A DNA stretch of 64,000 nucleotides, from positions 521,001 to 585,000 of the forward strand of contig NZ_CP040021.1 of assembly GCF_005280275.1 (NCBI RefSeq), read 5' to 3'. The notes under the pieces were generated by a model, which worked only from the letters and a program-made list of their open reading frames with translations, was not told the DNA's origin and did not search any database. The DNA comes from Salinivibrio kushneri. GTDB lineage: Bacteria > Pseudomonadota > Gammaproteobacteria > Enterobacterales > Vibrionaceae. Position numbers and translations under genes: made by a program. Positions 3,184 through 22,932 of this stretch are shown piece after piece. Each line of letters begins with the position of its first letter. The first letter of the stretch is position 1.

Positions 3184-5538
3184 ATGAAACAACTTAAAGT
3201 CCTTGCCCAATATTACGTCGACTTACTGGTCAAATTAGGGATTGTACGTTTTAGCATGCTACTGGCTTTAGCGCTTGTGGCGCTGGCGGTAGTGGTGCAA
3301 GTGGGGATCACCTTAGTCCTTGAGGGCACGGTTCAAAATATTGATATCATCCGCTCGGTTTTCTTTGGCCTGGTGATCACGCCGTGGGCGGTCTACTTTT
3401 TGTCGGTGGTGGTCGATCAGCTGGAAGAGTCTCGTCAGCGGTTATCAAAACTGGTCTCCAAGTTGGAAGAGATGCGCGCGCGTGATATGCGCCTCAACCG
3501 CCAACTGACCGAAAATATTGAGCAACTCAACTCGGAAATTGAAGAGCGAGAGAAAGCAGAAAGTGCGCGCCAGCAGGCGATTAAAGATCTAGAAAACGAA
3601 GTCTATCAGCGTGAAAAAGCACAGCTTGAGCTAGCAGAGCAAACCGCGTTACTACGCTCTTTTATCGATGCGTCTCCGGATTTGATTTATTACCGCAATG
3701 CTGATGGCCAGTTCTCGGGCTGTAACCGAGCGATGGAAGAGCTAACCGGTTATGACGAGAAAACACTCAAAGGGCTGACACCTTGGGACGTTTATCGCGA
3801 AGATATTGCTGAAAAAGTGGTAGAAACCGATCAGCAAGTGTTTGATGCCAATGTGTCGATAACCTATGAGCAATGGCTTGAATATCAAGACGGGCGTAAA
3901 GCCTATTTTGAATTACGCAAAGTGCCTTTCTTTGCCCGAGATGGTCGGCACCTTGGGCTGCTTGGGTTTGGGCGAGAAATTACCGAGCGTAAGCGCTACC
4001 AAGATGCACTGGAAAAAGCGAGCCGAGAAAAAACCGCGTTTATTTCCACCATTAGTCATGAATTACGCACCCCGCTTAACGGGATTGTTGGTCTAAGTCG
4101 CATGTTGCTGGAGTCAAACCTGGATGATAAGCAACGTAATTATCTGCGGACGATTTATGTCAGTGCGATCACGCTGGGCAACATTTTTAACGATATCATT
4201 GATTTAGATAAATCCGATCGCAAGCGCCTGTCTCTGCATCCCACCAGCGTGGACTTCAATGAATTTGTCACCGAAATCGACAATATTTCCGAGTTAATGG
4301 CCGAGCAAAAGGGCTTACGCTTTGAGCTTGAACGGGTCACTGAGTTGCCTGACTATGTGGCGGTTGATACCACGCGGCTGCGACAAATCCTATGGAACCT
4401 CGTCGGTAACGCGGTCAAATTTACCAAGCAAGGCTGTGTGATCGTGACAGTCAGCGCTGACGTGACAGGGGACCATGCCGACTTATGTTTCGAAGTCGAA
4501 GACAGTGGCATCGGGATCCCCGCCGATGAACAAGACAAGATTTTTGCCATGTATTACCAAGTCAAACAGGCGGGAGAAAACCTGCATGCCGTTGGTACAG
4601 GGATTGGCTTAGCGGTCTCGCGCAAATTAGCACGTTTGATGGGGGGAGATATTACCCTCGATAGTGAAGAAGGCGAGGGGAGTACCTTTACGGTCACACT
4701 CCGTGTACCACTGAGCGAGCCTGGGGAGGCCGAGACCCCGGCATTGGCACCTGTGGAGAATACGCTACGCATCTTATTGGTAGAAGATATTGAACTCAAT
4801 GTTACCGTTGCCACCAGTTTACTGGAAAGTCTGGGGCATCAGGTGACCGTCGCCCGTGATGGGCAATCGGCGTTAGATGTGTTCTCGCCTGATGCGTTCG
4901 ATCTGGCGTTGCTCGATATTCAATTGCCCGATATGACCGGGTTTGATATCGCGGCCACTTGGCGTGAGCAGTACGTACAATTGCCTCCTTTAGTTGCACT
5001 GACTGCCAATGTTATCAATGATAAAAATAGCTATCTCGCCAACGGAATGGACGATGCGATCAGTAAACCCATTAGTGTGAGTGCACTTAATCAGGTGATT
5101 GAACAGCATGCGCTATCATCCACCACGATGACGGATGTCGAGACAGCGAGTGATCCTGTGCCCAGTCGTCCTATTGCGAATGAACAAGCAGAGCGACTGC
5201 TCGATATGGACATGCTTACCGGTTACGTGGCGTTAGTAGGGGTAGACCCTGTGAAGCAAAGCATTGAAATGTTTGAGTCAACCATGCCAGAGTACATCGC
5301 CATTCTCGACTCGAATATGACGGCAAGAGATCAAGAGGGCATTGTCTCTGAGGCGCATAAGATAAAAGGTGCCGCGGGATCAGTGGGGCTCAAGCATATT
5401 CAAAAAGTGGCGCAGAAAGCACAATCCCCCGAATTACCTGCTTGGTGGGAAAACATTGCTGATTGGATTGATGAAATCAAAGATGGTTATCAGCACGATC
5501 TGGATGTGCTTAAAGCCTGGTTAGATGAGCAAGAGTAA
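3184..5538 (+). CDS. arcB: Aerobic respiration control hybrid sensor kinase ArcB
   Basis: 784 residues; E. coli ArcB has 778. It senses the redox state of the quinone pool and phosphorylates ArcA through a His-Asp-His relay. Two membrane segments lie at about 22-45 and 56-77, then a coiled coil and a PAS domain (about 155-275). The kinase domain has His292 in STISHELRTPLNG, an N-box (LWNLVGNAVKF) and DSGIGIP. The receiver has Asp578 (LALLDIQLPD), and the HPt domain has His725 (EAHKIKGAAGS). Of the two E. coli redox cysteines, Cys180 is present (FSGCNRAME) but position 241 is Tyr (GRKAYFELR). Only 9 bases separate it from the cyclase gene, with no strong ribosome site, so translation may be coupled to it. 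It converges on arcA. Confidence 0.97.
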   Translation: MKQLKVLAQYYVDLLVKLGIVRFSMLLALALVALAVVVQVGITLVLEGTVQNIDIIRSVFFGLVITPWAVYFLSVVVDQLEESRQRLSKLVSKLEEMRARDMRLNRQLTENIEQLNSEIEEREKAESARQQAIKDLENEVYQREKAQLELAEQTALLRSFIDASPDLIYYRNADGQFSGCNRAMEELTGYDEKTLKGLTPWDVYREDIAEKVVETDQQVFDANVSITYEQWLEYQDGRKAYFELRKVPFFARDGRHLGLLGFGREITERKRYQDALEKASREKTAFISTISHELRTPLNGIVGLSRMLLESNLDDKQRNYLRTIYVSAITLGNIFNDIIDLDKSDRKRLSLHPTSVDFNEFVTEIDNISELMAEQKGLRFELERVTELPDYVAVDTTRLRQILWNLVGNAVKFTKQGCVIVTVSADVTGDHADLCFEVEDSGIGIPADEQDKIFAMYYQVKQAGENLHAVGTGIGLAVSRKLARLMGGDITLDSEEGEGSTFTVTLRVPLSEPGEAETPALAPVENTLRILLVEDIELNVTVATSLLESLGHQVTVARDGQSALDVFSPDAFDLALLDIQLPDMTGFDIAATWREQYVQLPPLVALTANVINDKNSYLANGMDDAISKPISVSALNQVIEQHALSSTTMTDVETASDPVPSRPIANEQAERLLDMDMLTGYVALVGVDPVKQSIEMFESTMPEYIAILDSNMTARDQEGIVSEAHKIKGAAGSVGLKHIQKVAQKAQSPELPAWWENIADWIDEIKDGYQHDLDVLKAWLDEQE

Positions 5539-5567
5539 CCATGATTGACTCACCCGTCTAAAAAGAG

Positions 5568-5592
5568 AAAAGGCGCTGGGTAGGCGCCTTTT
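5568..5592. terminator. Bidirectional terminator between arcB and arcA
   Basis: Perfect 9-bp stem AAAAGGCGC / GCGCCTTTT with a 7-base loop at 5577-5583. The A and T runs on the two sides let it act for both convergent genes. Confidence 0.85.
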
Positions 5593-5646
5593 CGCTCTCT
5601 ATTTGCATCCTGCGGAGCGTTCACCGCACGTTTTCAAACAGGCAAG

Positions 5647-6366
5647 TTATTGCTCTTCAATTTCACCGCAGAAGCGATAACCTTCACCATGGATGGTCGC
5701 AATAATTTCAGGTGTGTCATTGTGCGATTCGAAATGTTTGCGGATCCGGCGGATCGTGACATCCACGGTACGATCGTGCGGTTTTAGTTCACGGCCCGTC
5801 ATTTTCTTCAGCAGCTCGGCACGCGTCTGAATTTTGCCTGGGTTTTCACAGAAGTGAAGCAGGGCACGGAACTCAGAGCGAGGCAGTTTAAAGGTTTCCC
5901 CTTCCGGGTTAATGAGCGAGCGACTATTGATGTCGAGTGTCCAGCCGTTAAAGATATACACATCGACATTACGCTTCTCGTCGCTGTCGTTGACACTGCT
6001 CATGGCACGCGTGAGCAGGTTACGTGCACGGATGGTGAGTTCGCGTGGATTGAACGGCTTGGTAATGTAATCATCGGCACCGATTTCGAGTCCGAGGATC
6101 TTATCAACTTCATTGTCACGTCCAGTGAGGAACATCAACGCCATGTCGCCTTGTTCACGCAGCTCACGTGCGAGCAACAAGCCGTTTTTGCCTGGCAAGT
6201 TAATATCCATGATCACTAGGTGAACATGGTGGTTAGACAGGACTTGATGCATTTCGTCGCCATCGCTGGCTTCAAACACATTGTAACCTTCCGCTTCAAA
6301 GATACTTTTCAGCGTGTTACGTGTGACCTGTTCATCTTCTACAATCAGAATTTGCGGGGTTTGCAT
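5647..6366 (-). CDS. arcA: Two-component response regulator ArcA
   Basis: 239 residues; E. coli ArcA has 238. This is the cytoplasmic DNA-binding partner of ArcB, repressing respiratory and TCA-cycle genes when oxygen is low. The receiver domain (residues 1-120) has the acidic pair Glu10-Asp11, phospho-acceptor Asp54 in [12 protein letters not shown], and Lys in the [11 protein letters not shown] to DYITKPF segment. The C-terminal OmpR-type winged helix (about 140-235) contains [20 protein letters not shown] and [11 protein letters not shown]. The gene converges on arcB, an arrangement known in Vibrio; in E. coli the two genes are far apart. The mRNA appears to have a long leader with an FNR box (see the leader entry). 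Confidence 0.98.
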
Positions 6367-6403
6367 TGGCGATACCTAATATCTAAATAGAATCCGGTTG
6401 CAC

Positions 6404-6476
6404 TTCACAGTCTAGACCGCCTAGCCTGTGAAAAAAATTTACAAAAATGCGAGGAGTGTCTACCGTGAACCTCGCA
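6404..6476 (-). promoter_or_regulatory. Two hairpins in the arcA leader, one terminator-like
   Basis: Reading leftwards towards arcA, the first hairpin has a perfect 7-bp stem, TGCGAGG / CCTCGCA (6476-6470 with 6454-6448, 15-base loop). It is followed at once by T-rich DNA (6447 down to 6431), the layout of an intrinsic terminator. The second hairpin, TTCACAG / CTGTGAA with an inner CTAG / CTAG pair (6432-6404), ends 38 bases before the arcA start codon. This suggests attenuation or a short leader RNA. The structure is visible in the sequence; the function is inference. Confidence 0.45.
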
Positions 6477-6682
6477 ACTAACATATGGCACGCCATCCAT
6501 AGAGAAGTGTTCGTCGATGCTAGACAACGCACCGTGAGTTCCAGCTTAAGACGGGGCGTGGCGGCGTTCGTTGACCACCAAGCCAATCACTCTGATATCC
6601 ATTAATTATCGCCAATTGTATTCATTTAACAGCACGCTAACAATATATTAGGATAAGGGTTGATGATTTTTTTCATCCTTTA

Positions 6683-6696
6683 TTGACCCCAATCAA
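6683..6696 (-). promoter_or_regulatory. FNR-type binding site upstream of arcA
   Basis: On the arcA strand the site reads TTGAT-TGGG-GTCAA, 9 of 10 conserved positions of the FNR consensus TTGAT-N4-ATCAA. AT-rich candidate -10 sequences lie about 35-45 bases further towards arcA (6642-6655), giving a leader of roughly 270 bases. E. coli arcA is known to be activated by FNR. The remainder of the 6367-6800 gap shows no convincing gene; the promoter of the rightward DUF3293 gene must also lie here. Confidence 0.6.
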
Positions 6697-6800
6697 AAGC
6701 ATGTTAAGTGTCAGTTAGCGACGCGTTTTAACTTAACTTTATGAATATTCGCGCATAATTAGTCATTAAGCATAGTATGAGTCACGAGCAGGTGTAAACA

Positions 6801-7223
6801 ATGTGTGATCCTGATAACCAGCAAGAATTGTGGAAAACTTACCAATCGATCGCGTTTCACGCCCCTCAAGCGCCAGATGCCGACGCATTTGCTATTCTTA
6901 CCGCATTTAATCCGCGTAGCCAACCTTTATCTGAGAAAGAGAATCAATCGCGTAATGATCAGCTGGAAAGTGCCATGGTGCAACAAGGGATACGCTATTG
7001 GCCAATGAATGGCGGTGCGCCAGATGGGAGTTGGTATGAACCGGGTTTTGCGGTTGCTTTAGATAAGCACGAAGCGATGTTATTGGCGCAACAATGGCAG
7101 CAAAATGCTATCTATTGGGTAGAGAATGATAGCTTGTGGTTGTTGCCTGTTTTGATGGATACGTTTACACCGCAATCACTGAACGTGCGCTTTTCATCCT
7201 TGTTGACGGCCCCCACTCGCTAA
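6801..7223 (+). CDS. DUF3293 family protein
   Basis: 140 residues, cytoplasmic by appearance, with no signal peptide or membrane segment. The core block AILTAFNPRSQPLSEKEN, the central WPMNGGAPDGSWYEPGF, and the following LLAQQWQQNAIYWVEND match the DUF3293 family as I know it. The family has no established function. The gene sits directly before rraA, 34 bases apart, the same order as in Vibrio, and the two are probably co-transcribed. A CAGGTG ribosome site precedes the ATG. Confidence 0.8.
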   Translation: MCDPDNQQELWKTYQSIAFHAPQAPDADAFAILTAFNPRSQPLSEKENQSRNDQLESAMVQQGIRYWPMNGGAPDGSWYEPGFAVALDKHEAMLLAQQWQQNAIYWVENDSLWLLPVLMDTFTPQSLNVRFSSLLTAPTR

Positions 7224-10338: not shown

Positions 10339-10434
10339 ATGATAAACGCAACACACATGCAACTAACGATCAGCACCCAGACCACCACAACCACCATTAT
10401 TATTACTGGCACAACGTGTGTTGGTGCGGGCTGA
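10339..10434 (+). CDS. thrL: thr operon leader peptide ThrL
   Basis: A short reading frame ending at TGA 10432-10434. From the in-frame ATG at 10357 it encodes 25 residues, MQLTISTQTTTTTIIITGTT and then CVGAG, with 10 Thr and 4 Ile. It closely resembles E. coli ThrL in design. An upstream in-frame ATG at 10339 (MINATH) gives 31 residues and follows an AGAGAG stretch, so I list the longer form; the true start is uncertain. The runs of Thr and Ile codons let ribosome stalling report charged tRNA-Thr and tRNA-Ile levels. Confidence 0.85.
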   Translation: MINATHMQLTISTQTTTTTIIITGTTCVGAG

Positions 10435-10488
10435 TACGCACAGAATTTCCAAAAAAGCCCGTACCTTCTCAGGTACGGGCTTTTTTTT
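10424..10488 (+). terminator. thr operon attenuator with competing antiterminator pairing
   Basis: The terminator stem AAAAAAGCCCGTACC / GGTACGGGCTTTTTT (10451-10465 with 10472-10486) has a 6-base loop and ends in T8. The left arm GCCCGTAC (10457-10464) can pair instead with GTGCGGGC (10424-10431; one G-U pair), which overlaps the last ThrL codons. Stalling on the Thr/Ile codons leaves 10424-10431 free and favours antitermination. A ribosome reaching the stop codon at 10432 covers it and lets the terminator form. thrA begins 24 bases after the T run. Confidence 0.85.
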
Positions 10489-10512
10489 ATCGTAGAGAGA
10501 GGTTCCAAACGG

Positions 10513-15778: not shown

Positions 15779-15792
15779 TTGACATAAATCAA
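15779..15792 (-). promoter_or_regulatory. FNR-type binding site upstream of grcA
   Basis: TTGAC-ATAA-ATCAA, 9 of 10 conserved positions of the FNR consensus, centred about 98 bases before the grcA ATG. The gap from 15688 to 16100 otherwise shows AT-rich DNA and no convincing gene. Confidence 0.65.
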
Positions 15793-22744: not shown

Positions 22745-22928
22745 AAGAGGACCCCGGGGTGCCGTTGGGATCGATGGCCCTTGAACCCGCTGGTTCAAGG
22801 CGGGTGGGTAGTATAAACCGTAGGCTTCTCGGTGCATGCCGAGCTTGCTCAGTAGCTTATAACAACGCACCCTTAGTTTTGCTTATCGGCTCAGGGACGT
22901 AGATCCGCTGACAAACACCCCAGGGAAT
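22745..22928 (-). ncRNA. ssrS: 6S RNA
   Basis: Recognised by sequence and position between zapA and fau. Read on the minus strand it begins ATTCCCTGGGGTG and ends near CACCCCGGGGTCCTC; these ends pair over 10 bp. Internally it has CCTGAGCCGATA, CCGAGAAGCCT and the CCTTGAACC...GGTTCAAGG hairpin of the E. coli RNA. The ends are set by analogy, giving 184 bases, equal to the E. coli length. 6S RNA mimics an open promoter and sequesters sigma-70 RNA polymerase in stationary phase. Confidence 0.95.
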
Positions 22929-22932
22929 TGGG

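Follow-up and report, generated by a model that had tools for sequence, protein, structure and literature searches.

Whether metabolism runs aerobically or anaerobically is a switch set by ArcA. In E. coli, arcA is preceded by an FNR box and an ArcA-type repeat, the box lying at -81.5 by the promoter rule applied here, and its 5' untranslated region (5' UTR), ~200 nt by the same rule, is long. FNR control and autoregulation of arcA in the Vibrionaceae are among the predictions of a 2007 study (PMC1805755). At the post-transcriptional level, a paper on Erwinia amylovora (PMC6895013) reports that the small RNA (sRNA) ArcZ activates an arcA 5' UTR translational fusion, its predicted site lying 50 nt upstream of the start codon. 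Other systems that bear comparison are leaders that cover the ribosome-binding site (RBS), a known kind of element, mRNA leaders controlled by CsrA, and intrinsic terminators serving as leader attenuators.

Here, we describe the region upstream of arcA in Salinivibrio kushneri, within a stretch of 64,000 nucleotides (the window; NZ_CP040021.1, positions 521,001 to 585,000) from a genome of 3.44 Mb in two contigs. Sequence comparison suggests that the arcA leader may well be a translational control element that covers the RBS, placed under an FNR-type promoter with an ArcA-box-like repeat.

The arcA locus and its promoter

In the window, arcB and arcA adjoin tail to tail (3184-6366), and the divergent gene upstream of arcA (6801-7223) encodes a DUF3293 protein. 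In E. coli MG1655, arcA sits between creD and yjjY, and arcB lies elsewhere in the genome. The features of the locus and promoter are:

3184-5538, plus strand: arcB, with an ArcB transmembrane domain (domain match)
5647-6366, minus strand: arcA coding sequence, with response regulator domains (domain matches)
6367-6608, minus strand: predicted arcA 5' leader, ~242 nt (promoter comparison and fold)
6608, minus strand: predicted transcription start, 7 nt after the -10 hexamer (from promoter comparison)
6615-6643, minus strand: core promoter, TTGTTA (6643-6638), 17 bases, TACAAT (6620-6615) (mechanical scan and family comparison)
6627-6642, minus strand: direct repeat TGTTA-N6-TGTTA, 11-base-spaced, over the -35 region (comparison)
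6683-6696, minus strand: FNR box TTGATTGGGGTCAA, its centre at -81.5 from the predicted start (pattern count and conservation)

Two sets of sequences were compared. The genus set comprises the window and seven congeners, eight genomes in all. The family set holds 133 arcA upstream regions, including a few duplicates from named records, and 129 distinct leaders; the named ArcA relatives include Photobacterium and Vibrio. Four of 97 newly fetched loci (L142, L197, L205 and L211) were dropped as having no ArcA start by the pattern used, and L033 and loci outside the family were excluded from the 133. In L049 arcA is frameshifted, hence its RBS window is 2 nt off.

A preliminary description of this DNA, made from the letters alone, had noted a near-perfect FNR site upstream of arcA, and this is confirmed: the pattern TTGATNNNNRTCAA has two matches in the 64-kb window against 0.28 expected, and the box is invariant in all eight genomes of the genus. 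The -10 candidates that it placed just after the box, and the leader of about 270 bases that they implied, are not borne out. TTGTTA-17-TACAAT, which it had missed, is better supported by comparison, being listed by a mechanical promoter scan, invariant or nearly so in the eight congeners, and recurrent across the family. It is this promoter that puts the predicted start at ~6608 and the length of the leader at ~242 nt. A second near-consensus FNR-type site, TTGATTTATGTCAA, lies on the minus strand at 15779-15792.

Across the family, an FNR box with at least nine of the ten consensus bases is found in 120 of the 133 upstream regions, the other 13 having a weak best match only. Its centre falls at -81.5 (49 regions), -80.5 (7), -70.5 (61) or -71.5 (2) from the predicted start in 119 of these 120, and at -83.5 in one, giving a helix-phased spacing (-80.5/-81.5 or -70.5/-71.5) in 119 of the 133. 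The two spacing classes stand one helical turn apart, which fits an activator site of the upstream (class I) type. By sequence, the arcA promoter has the features of a class I FNR-dependent promoter, and its activation by FNR is predicted. The TGTTA-N6-TGTTA repeat is found over the -35 region in the window and nearly all relatives; we take it to resemble the ArcA box, and as a candidate ArcA box it has the sequence expected of an ArcA-autoregulated promoter. Sequence comparison establishes this promoter architecture and its conservation, and the conservation supports FNR control of an arcA transcript whose leader is long and structured. The arrangement differs only in detail, namely the exact spacing classes and the position of the repeat over the -35 region, from the FNR-activated, ArcA-autoregulated promoter of E. 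coli and of the Vibrionaceae prediction. As it was predicted in 2007, the promoter part is known in kind and its arrangement ordinary. Between the FNR box and the promoter, the inverted repeat GATGAAAAAAATCATC (6662-6677) is present in all eight congeners and is possibly the site of a second regulator.

A conserved leader strand complementary to the ribosome-binding site

The features of the leader, in the order in which they would be transcribed, are:

6477-6544, minus strand: leader core (identity to congeners)
6487-6500, minus strand: AUGGAUGGCGUGCC, AnGGA followed by the anti-RBS strand (6495-6487) (alignments, duplex and fold predictions)
6448-6476, minus strand: hairpin 1, a 7-bp stem with a 15-nt loop, -9.9 kcal/mol (fold and terminator search)
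6431-6447, minus strand: T-rich linker TTTTTGTAAATTTTTTT between hairpins 1 and 2 (alignment)
6404-6432, minus strand: hairpin 2, TTCACAG.CTAG/CTAG.CTGTGAA (compensatory changes in relatives)
6367-6379, minus strand: arcA RBS UUAGGUAUCGCCA, including GGUAUCGCCA (6376-6367), complementary to the anti-RBS strand (alignments, duplex and fold predictions)

The leader core is 0.91-1.00 identical to the seven congeners, against 0.48-0.79 for arcA's four-fold degenerate sites; the RBS does not vary. The 3' part of the core, AnGGAUGGCGUxCC, is the most conserved leader segment across genera besides the RBS and the T-rich stretch. Within this 3' part lies a strand complementary to the RBS; the two sequences are UGGCGUGCC and GGUAUCGCCA in the window, GGCGUACC and GGUACUGCC in genus g8, GGCGUU and AACGCC in g3, and GGCGG and CCGCC in g12. 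In RNAalifold predictions made genus by genus for five genera, the conserved GGCG strand pairs with the arcA RBS every time, and the minimum-free-energy fold of the window leader includes the same helix. A leader that sequesters the RBS should carry a conserved strand complementary, in register, to the Shine-Dalgarno/start region, and in alignment A1 92.8% of cells pair in the anti-RBS/RBS register, versus 12-52% when it is slid. Compensatory changes within the helix, which would be supporting but are not strictly required, are lacking: in a fixed-register count, none of the eight pairs shows a double-sided change, and shuffles score as high as the real alignment.

The motif GGAnGG (GGAnGGnn) occurs 70-180 nt upstream of the start codon in 122 of the 129 distinct leaders, and is missing, by the pattern used, from seven. 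In 104 of the 122 no other part of the leader forms a better duplex with the RBS than its strand does, and in nine of the other 18 an upstream GGCGUACU takes this place. The latter is seen in g12 leaders (L024, L025, L174, L178, L180, L182, L225, L226 and L228), as if the anti-RBS strand had moved. The native duplexes average -10.73 kcal/mol, as compared with -10.33 (sd 0.16) when RBSs are swapped among the 45 haplotypes; as strong a mean arises in 21 of 2000 permutations, in a test that ignores relatedness. The predicted cost of opening the RBS is 4.6 kcal/mol in the window leader, and 3.5-7.1 kcal/mol in the 12 leaders computed.

The full ensembles and the shuffled controls speak in part against this reading. 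At least four expected motif:RBS pairs are present in the full ensemble of 63 of the 122 leaders, and of 3 of 34 in g12. The duplex strength of g3 leaders is equalled in up to 46 of 100 shuffles, and that of the weakest g12 and g7 cases in up to 97 of 100. The whole window leader is scarcely more stable than its shuffles (z -1.10); moderate stability is seen in the 137-nt domain that begins with the anti-RBS strand and runs up to the start codon (z -2.13). Given the lack of covariation, the ensemble pair counts and the strengths reached by shuffles, the modelled anti-RBS/RBS pairing is graded as likely for three genera (the window's own, g8 and g10) and as uncertain for g12 and g7. An alternative fold, computed from 6680, in which the RBS pairs with the segment immediately following the -10 hexamer (~6617-6608), was rejected, as no base of this segment lies beyond the predicted start and the segment is unconserved.

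In the mechanism we propose, arcA would be transcribed from a class I FNR-type promoter, starting at ~6608 and with the ArcA-box-like repeat over its -35 region, as a transcript opening with a ~242-nt leader that acts in translational control. The anti-RBS strand would pair with the RBS and so close a domain made up of hairpin 1, the U-rich linker and hairpin 2; in the full leader, GGUAUCGCC is predicted to be paired. In the closed state the Shine-Dalgarno sequence would be paired and arcA poorly translated, and a trans-acting factor, bound at the conserved core, where AnGGA stands beside the anti-RBS strand, or at the U-rich linker, may shift the balance. It is from the sequences that we infer that the helix forms in the cell, lowers translation and is regulated by a factor. 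If this is correct, oxygen control in the whole family would gain a post-transcriptional layer through a conserved RNA element that gates ArcA translation, parallel to the ArcZ-arcA link of Erwinia but unlike it in sequence.

The element is compact and specific to arcA. A covariance model (R1), built from 38 leaders and searched in 61 whole genomes, gave exactly one match per genome in 29 of the 37 family genomes, each ending at the arcA start codon; ten of the 29 match sequences are absent from the training alignment. Eight of the 37 family genomes gave no match, nor did any of the 24 genomes from outside the family, which may not include Enterobacteriaceae. The restriction of R1 to the region before arcA and to this family identifies a family-level, arcA-bound cis element. 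A known RNA family was rejected for the leader, as Rfam 15 gave no match at E values up to 5 in 6330-6800, and among the open-access papers listed for an arcA leader element or for control of arcA translation, none appeared to deal with such an element in the Vibrionaceae. By these searches, the arcA leader is an undescribed leader, probably of the RBS-covering kind.

Candidate partners of the leader core

Since the anti-RBS base pairs are mostly invariant, they may be conserved for another reason. The core could be chiefly a binding site for a protein, CsrA recognising AnGGA, or for an sRNA, with the RBS complementarity secondary; we consider this rather unlikely as the main explanation. Within the genus the core is nearly invariant and more conserved than the predicted stems require, an excess that suggests a sequence-specific partner. 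AnGGA is present in 111 of the 122 leaders while the base before GGA varies, and its position beside the anti-RBS strand makes CsrA a candidate. A modelling preprint (PMC12889724) lists arcA among predicted CsrA targets, V. cholerae included, whereas a term search finds no mention of arcA in the main text of the V. cholerae CsrA paper that the preprint cites (PMC7858070). The leader is thus like CsrA-controlled mRNA leaders in having a conserved AnGGA adjoining an RBS-covering strand. It differs in that the GGA stands outside hairpin loops in the predicted folds, that of the window included, and tends to be paired in most groups; by its sequence it is a candidate CsrA site.

The ArcZ-activated arcA leader of Erwinia amylovora (PMC6895013) shares with the Vibrionaceae leader a long 5' UTR under post-transcriptional control, predicted in the latter case. 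The two differ in that R1 matches none of the 24 genomes outside the family, with the reservation on Enterobacteriaceae given above, and in that the window's own genome has no match to the ArcZ model RF00081, a control search with which finds ArcZ in E. coli. ArcZ was consequently rejected as the partner in this genome. The enterobacterial arcA leaders L051 (E. coli), L056 and L057 are ~200 nt long and very conserved among the three sequences; those of L051 and L057, folded here, give a different fold.

Hairpins of the leader and the remaining alternatives

The preliminary description had read a 7-bp stem followed by T-rich DNA as an intrinsic terminator on the arcA strand, allowing leader attenuation. 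The stem and the T-rich stretch are present as hairpin 1 and the linker, but their resemblance to a terminator is confined to this genus. A terminator scan with loops of up to 8 nt reported none on the minus strand at hairpin 1. With loops of up to 20 nt, it was found in all eight leaders of the genus, with at least five G-C pairs in seven of them; the corresponding region holds a terminator-like site in six of the 121 other distinct leaders, all of them weaker and none with at least five G-C pairs. A site of the same grade is contained in 36 of 100 dinucleotide shuffles of the window leader (loops of up to 20 nt), so that hairpin 1 in one sequence alone does not exceed chance. Together, these counts make the terminator resemblance a genus-level feature that is not strong alone.

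Hairpin 1 and the T tract might nevertheless form a genuine, leaky terminator in this genus, at which a fraction of FNR-driven transcripts stops at ~6440. The stem has five G-C pairs and a predicted energy of -9.9 kcal/mol, TTTTT follows it immediately, and it is maintained in all eight congeners, shifted yet restored in the most diverged. Against this stand the 15-nt loop, the presence of just 4-5 U ahead of GUAAA, the scarcity of such sites in the rest of the family and their frequency in shuffles; moreover, inspection by eye of the genus alignment and the predicted folds revealed no antiterminator, that is, no mutually exclusive pairing. The proposal of attenuation thus finds weak support: it is possible in this genus, but not the main signal, and as an account of the leader we judge it improbable. 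Translational control fits better, because hairpin 1 is nested in a predicted fold whose closing helix covers the RBS. Established attenuators, such as the threonine leader in this window (10373-10489), likewise place a stem before T-rich DNA in a leader, and the arcA leader departs from them in its long loop, its weak conservation outside the genus, and its lack of a coding leader and of a recognised antiterminator.

Termination at this site could also release a short sRNA (~6608 to 6440) acting in trans. The conservation of the core and the terminator-like 3' end, both within the genus, would suit such a product, but most of the family lacks the terminator-like end and retains the core motif, and R1 matches solely in front of arcA, as expected of a cis element; a released sRNA is very unlikely. 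A broader reading combines several of these elements. The arcA leader of the Vibrionaceae would be an undescribed class of cis-regulatory RNA, its RBS opened or closed by a dedicated trans factor bound to the AnGGAUGGCG core (either CsrA or an Hfq sRNA in place of ArcZ, which the genome seems not to have), and the window's genus would also have gained a terminator, with FNR induction yielding both arcA mRNA and a short regulatory RNA. This is speculative, and we would expect it to prove wrong in the whole, though it is a little less remote than the released sRNA by itself.

The other hairpin that had been noticed, close to the start codon, proved to be real. In the alignments, 90.3% of cells pair in hairpin 2 and sliding the partner destroys the pairing; ten cells changed on both sides, versus 2.9 in shuffles, and none of 500 shuffles scored as high, although related sequences can exceed such shuffles without structure. 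Despite this caveat hairpin 2 is convincing, because its stems differ from genus to genus (CACAG/CTGTG, CATAGAGT/ACTCTGTG and ATAGAAT/ATTCTAT). Comparative folding of the leader in relatives had been suggested as a check: hairpin 2 covaries, RBS pairing is predicted in five genera, and the terminator form of hairpin 1 is a genus-level feature.

The T-rich stretch might instead be the spacer of a second promoter, as TTGCCT or TTACCT, an 18-nt spacing and TAGAAT can be read in the g8, g10 and g12 alignments. In the window's genus and g3, however, CACAG/CTGTG replaces the -10-like bases while compensatory change preserves the hairpin, which indicates that hairpin 2 and not a -10 hexamer is conserved; a second promoter is scarcely credible and was rejected for the window's genus. 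A leader peptide has next to no chance of being the explanation, since the open frames of 67 and 40 amino acids that overlap the leader are both broken by one-base indels among congeners.

Elsewhere in the window, Rfam matches mark the threonine operon leader (10373-10489) and 6S RNA (22747-22929).
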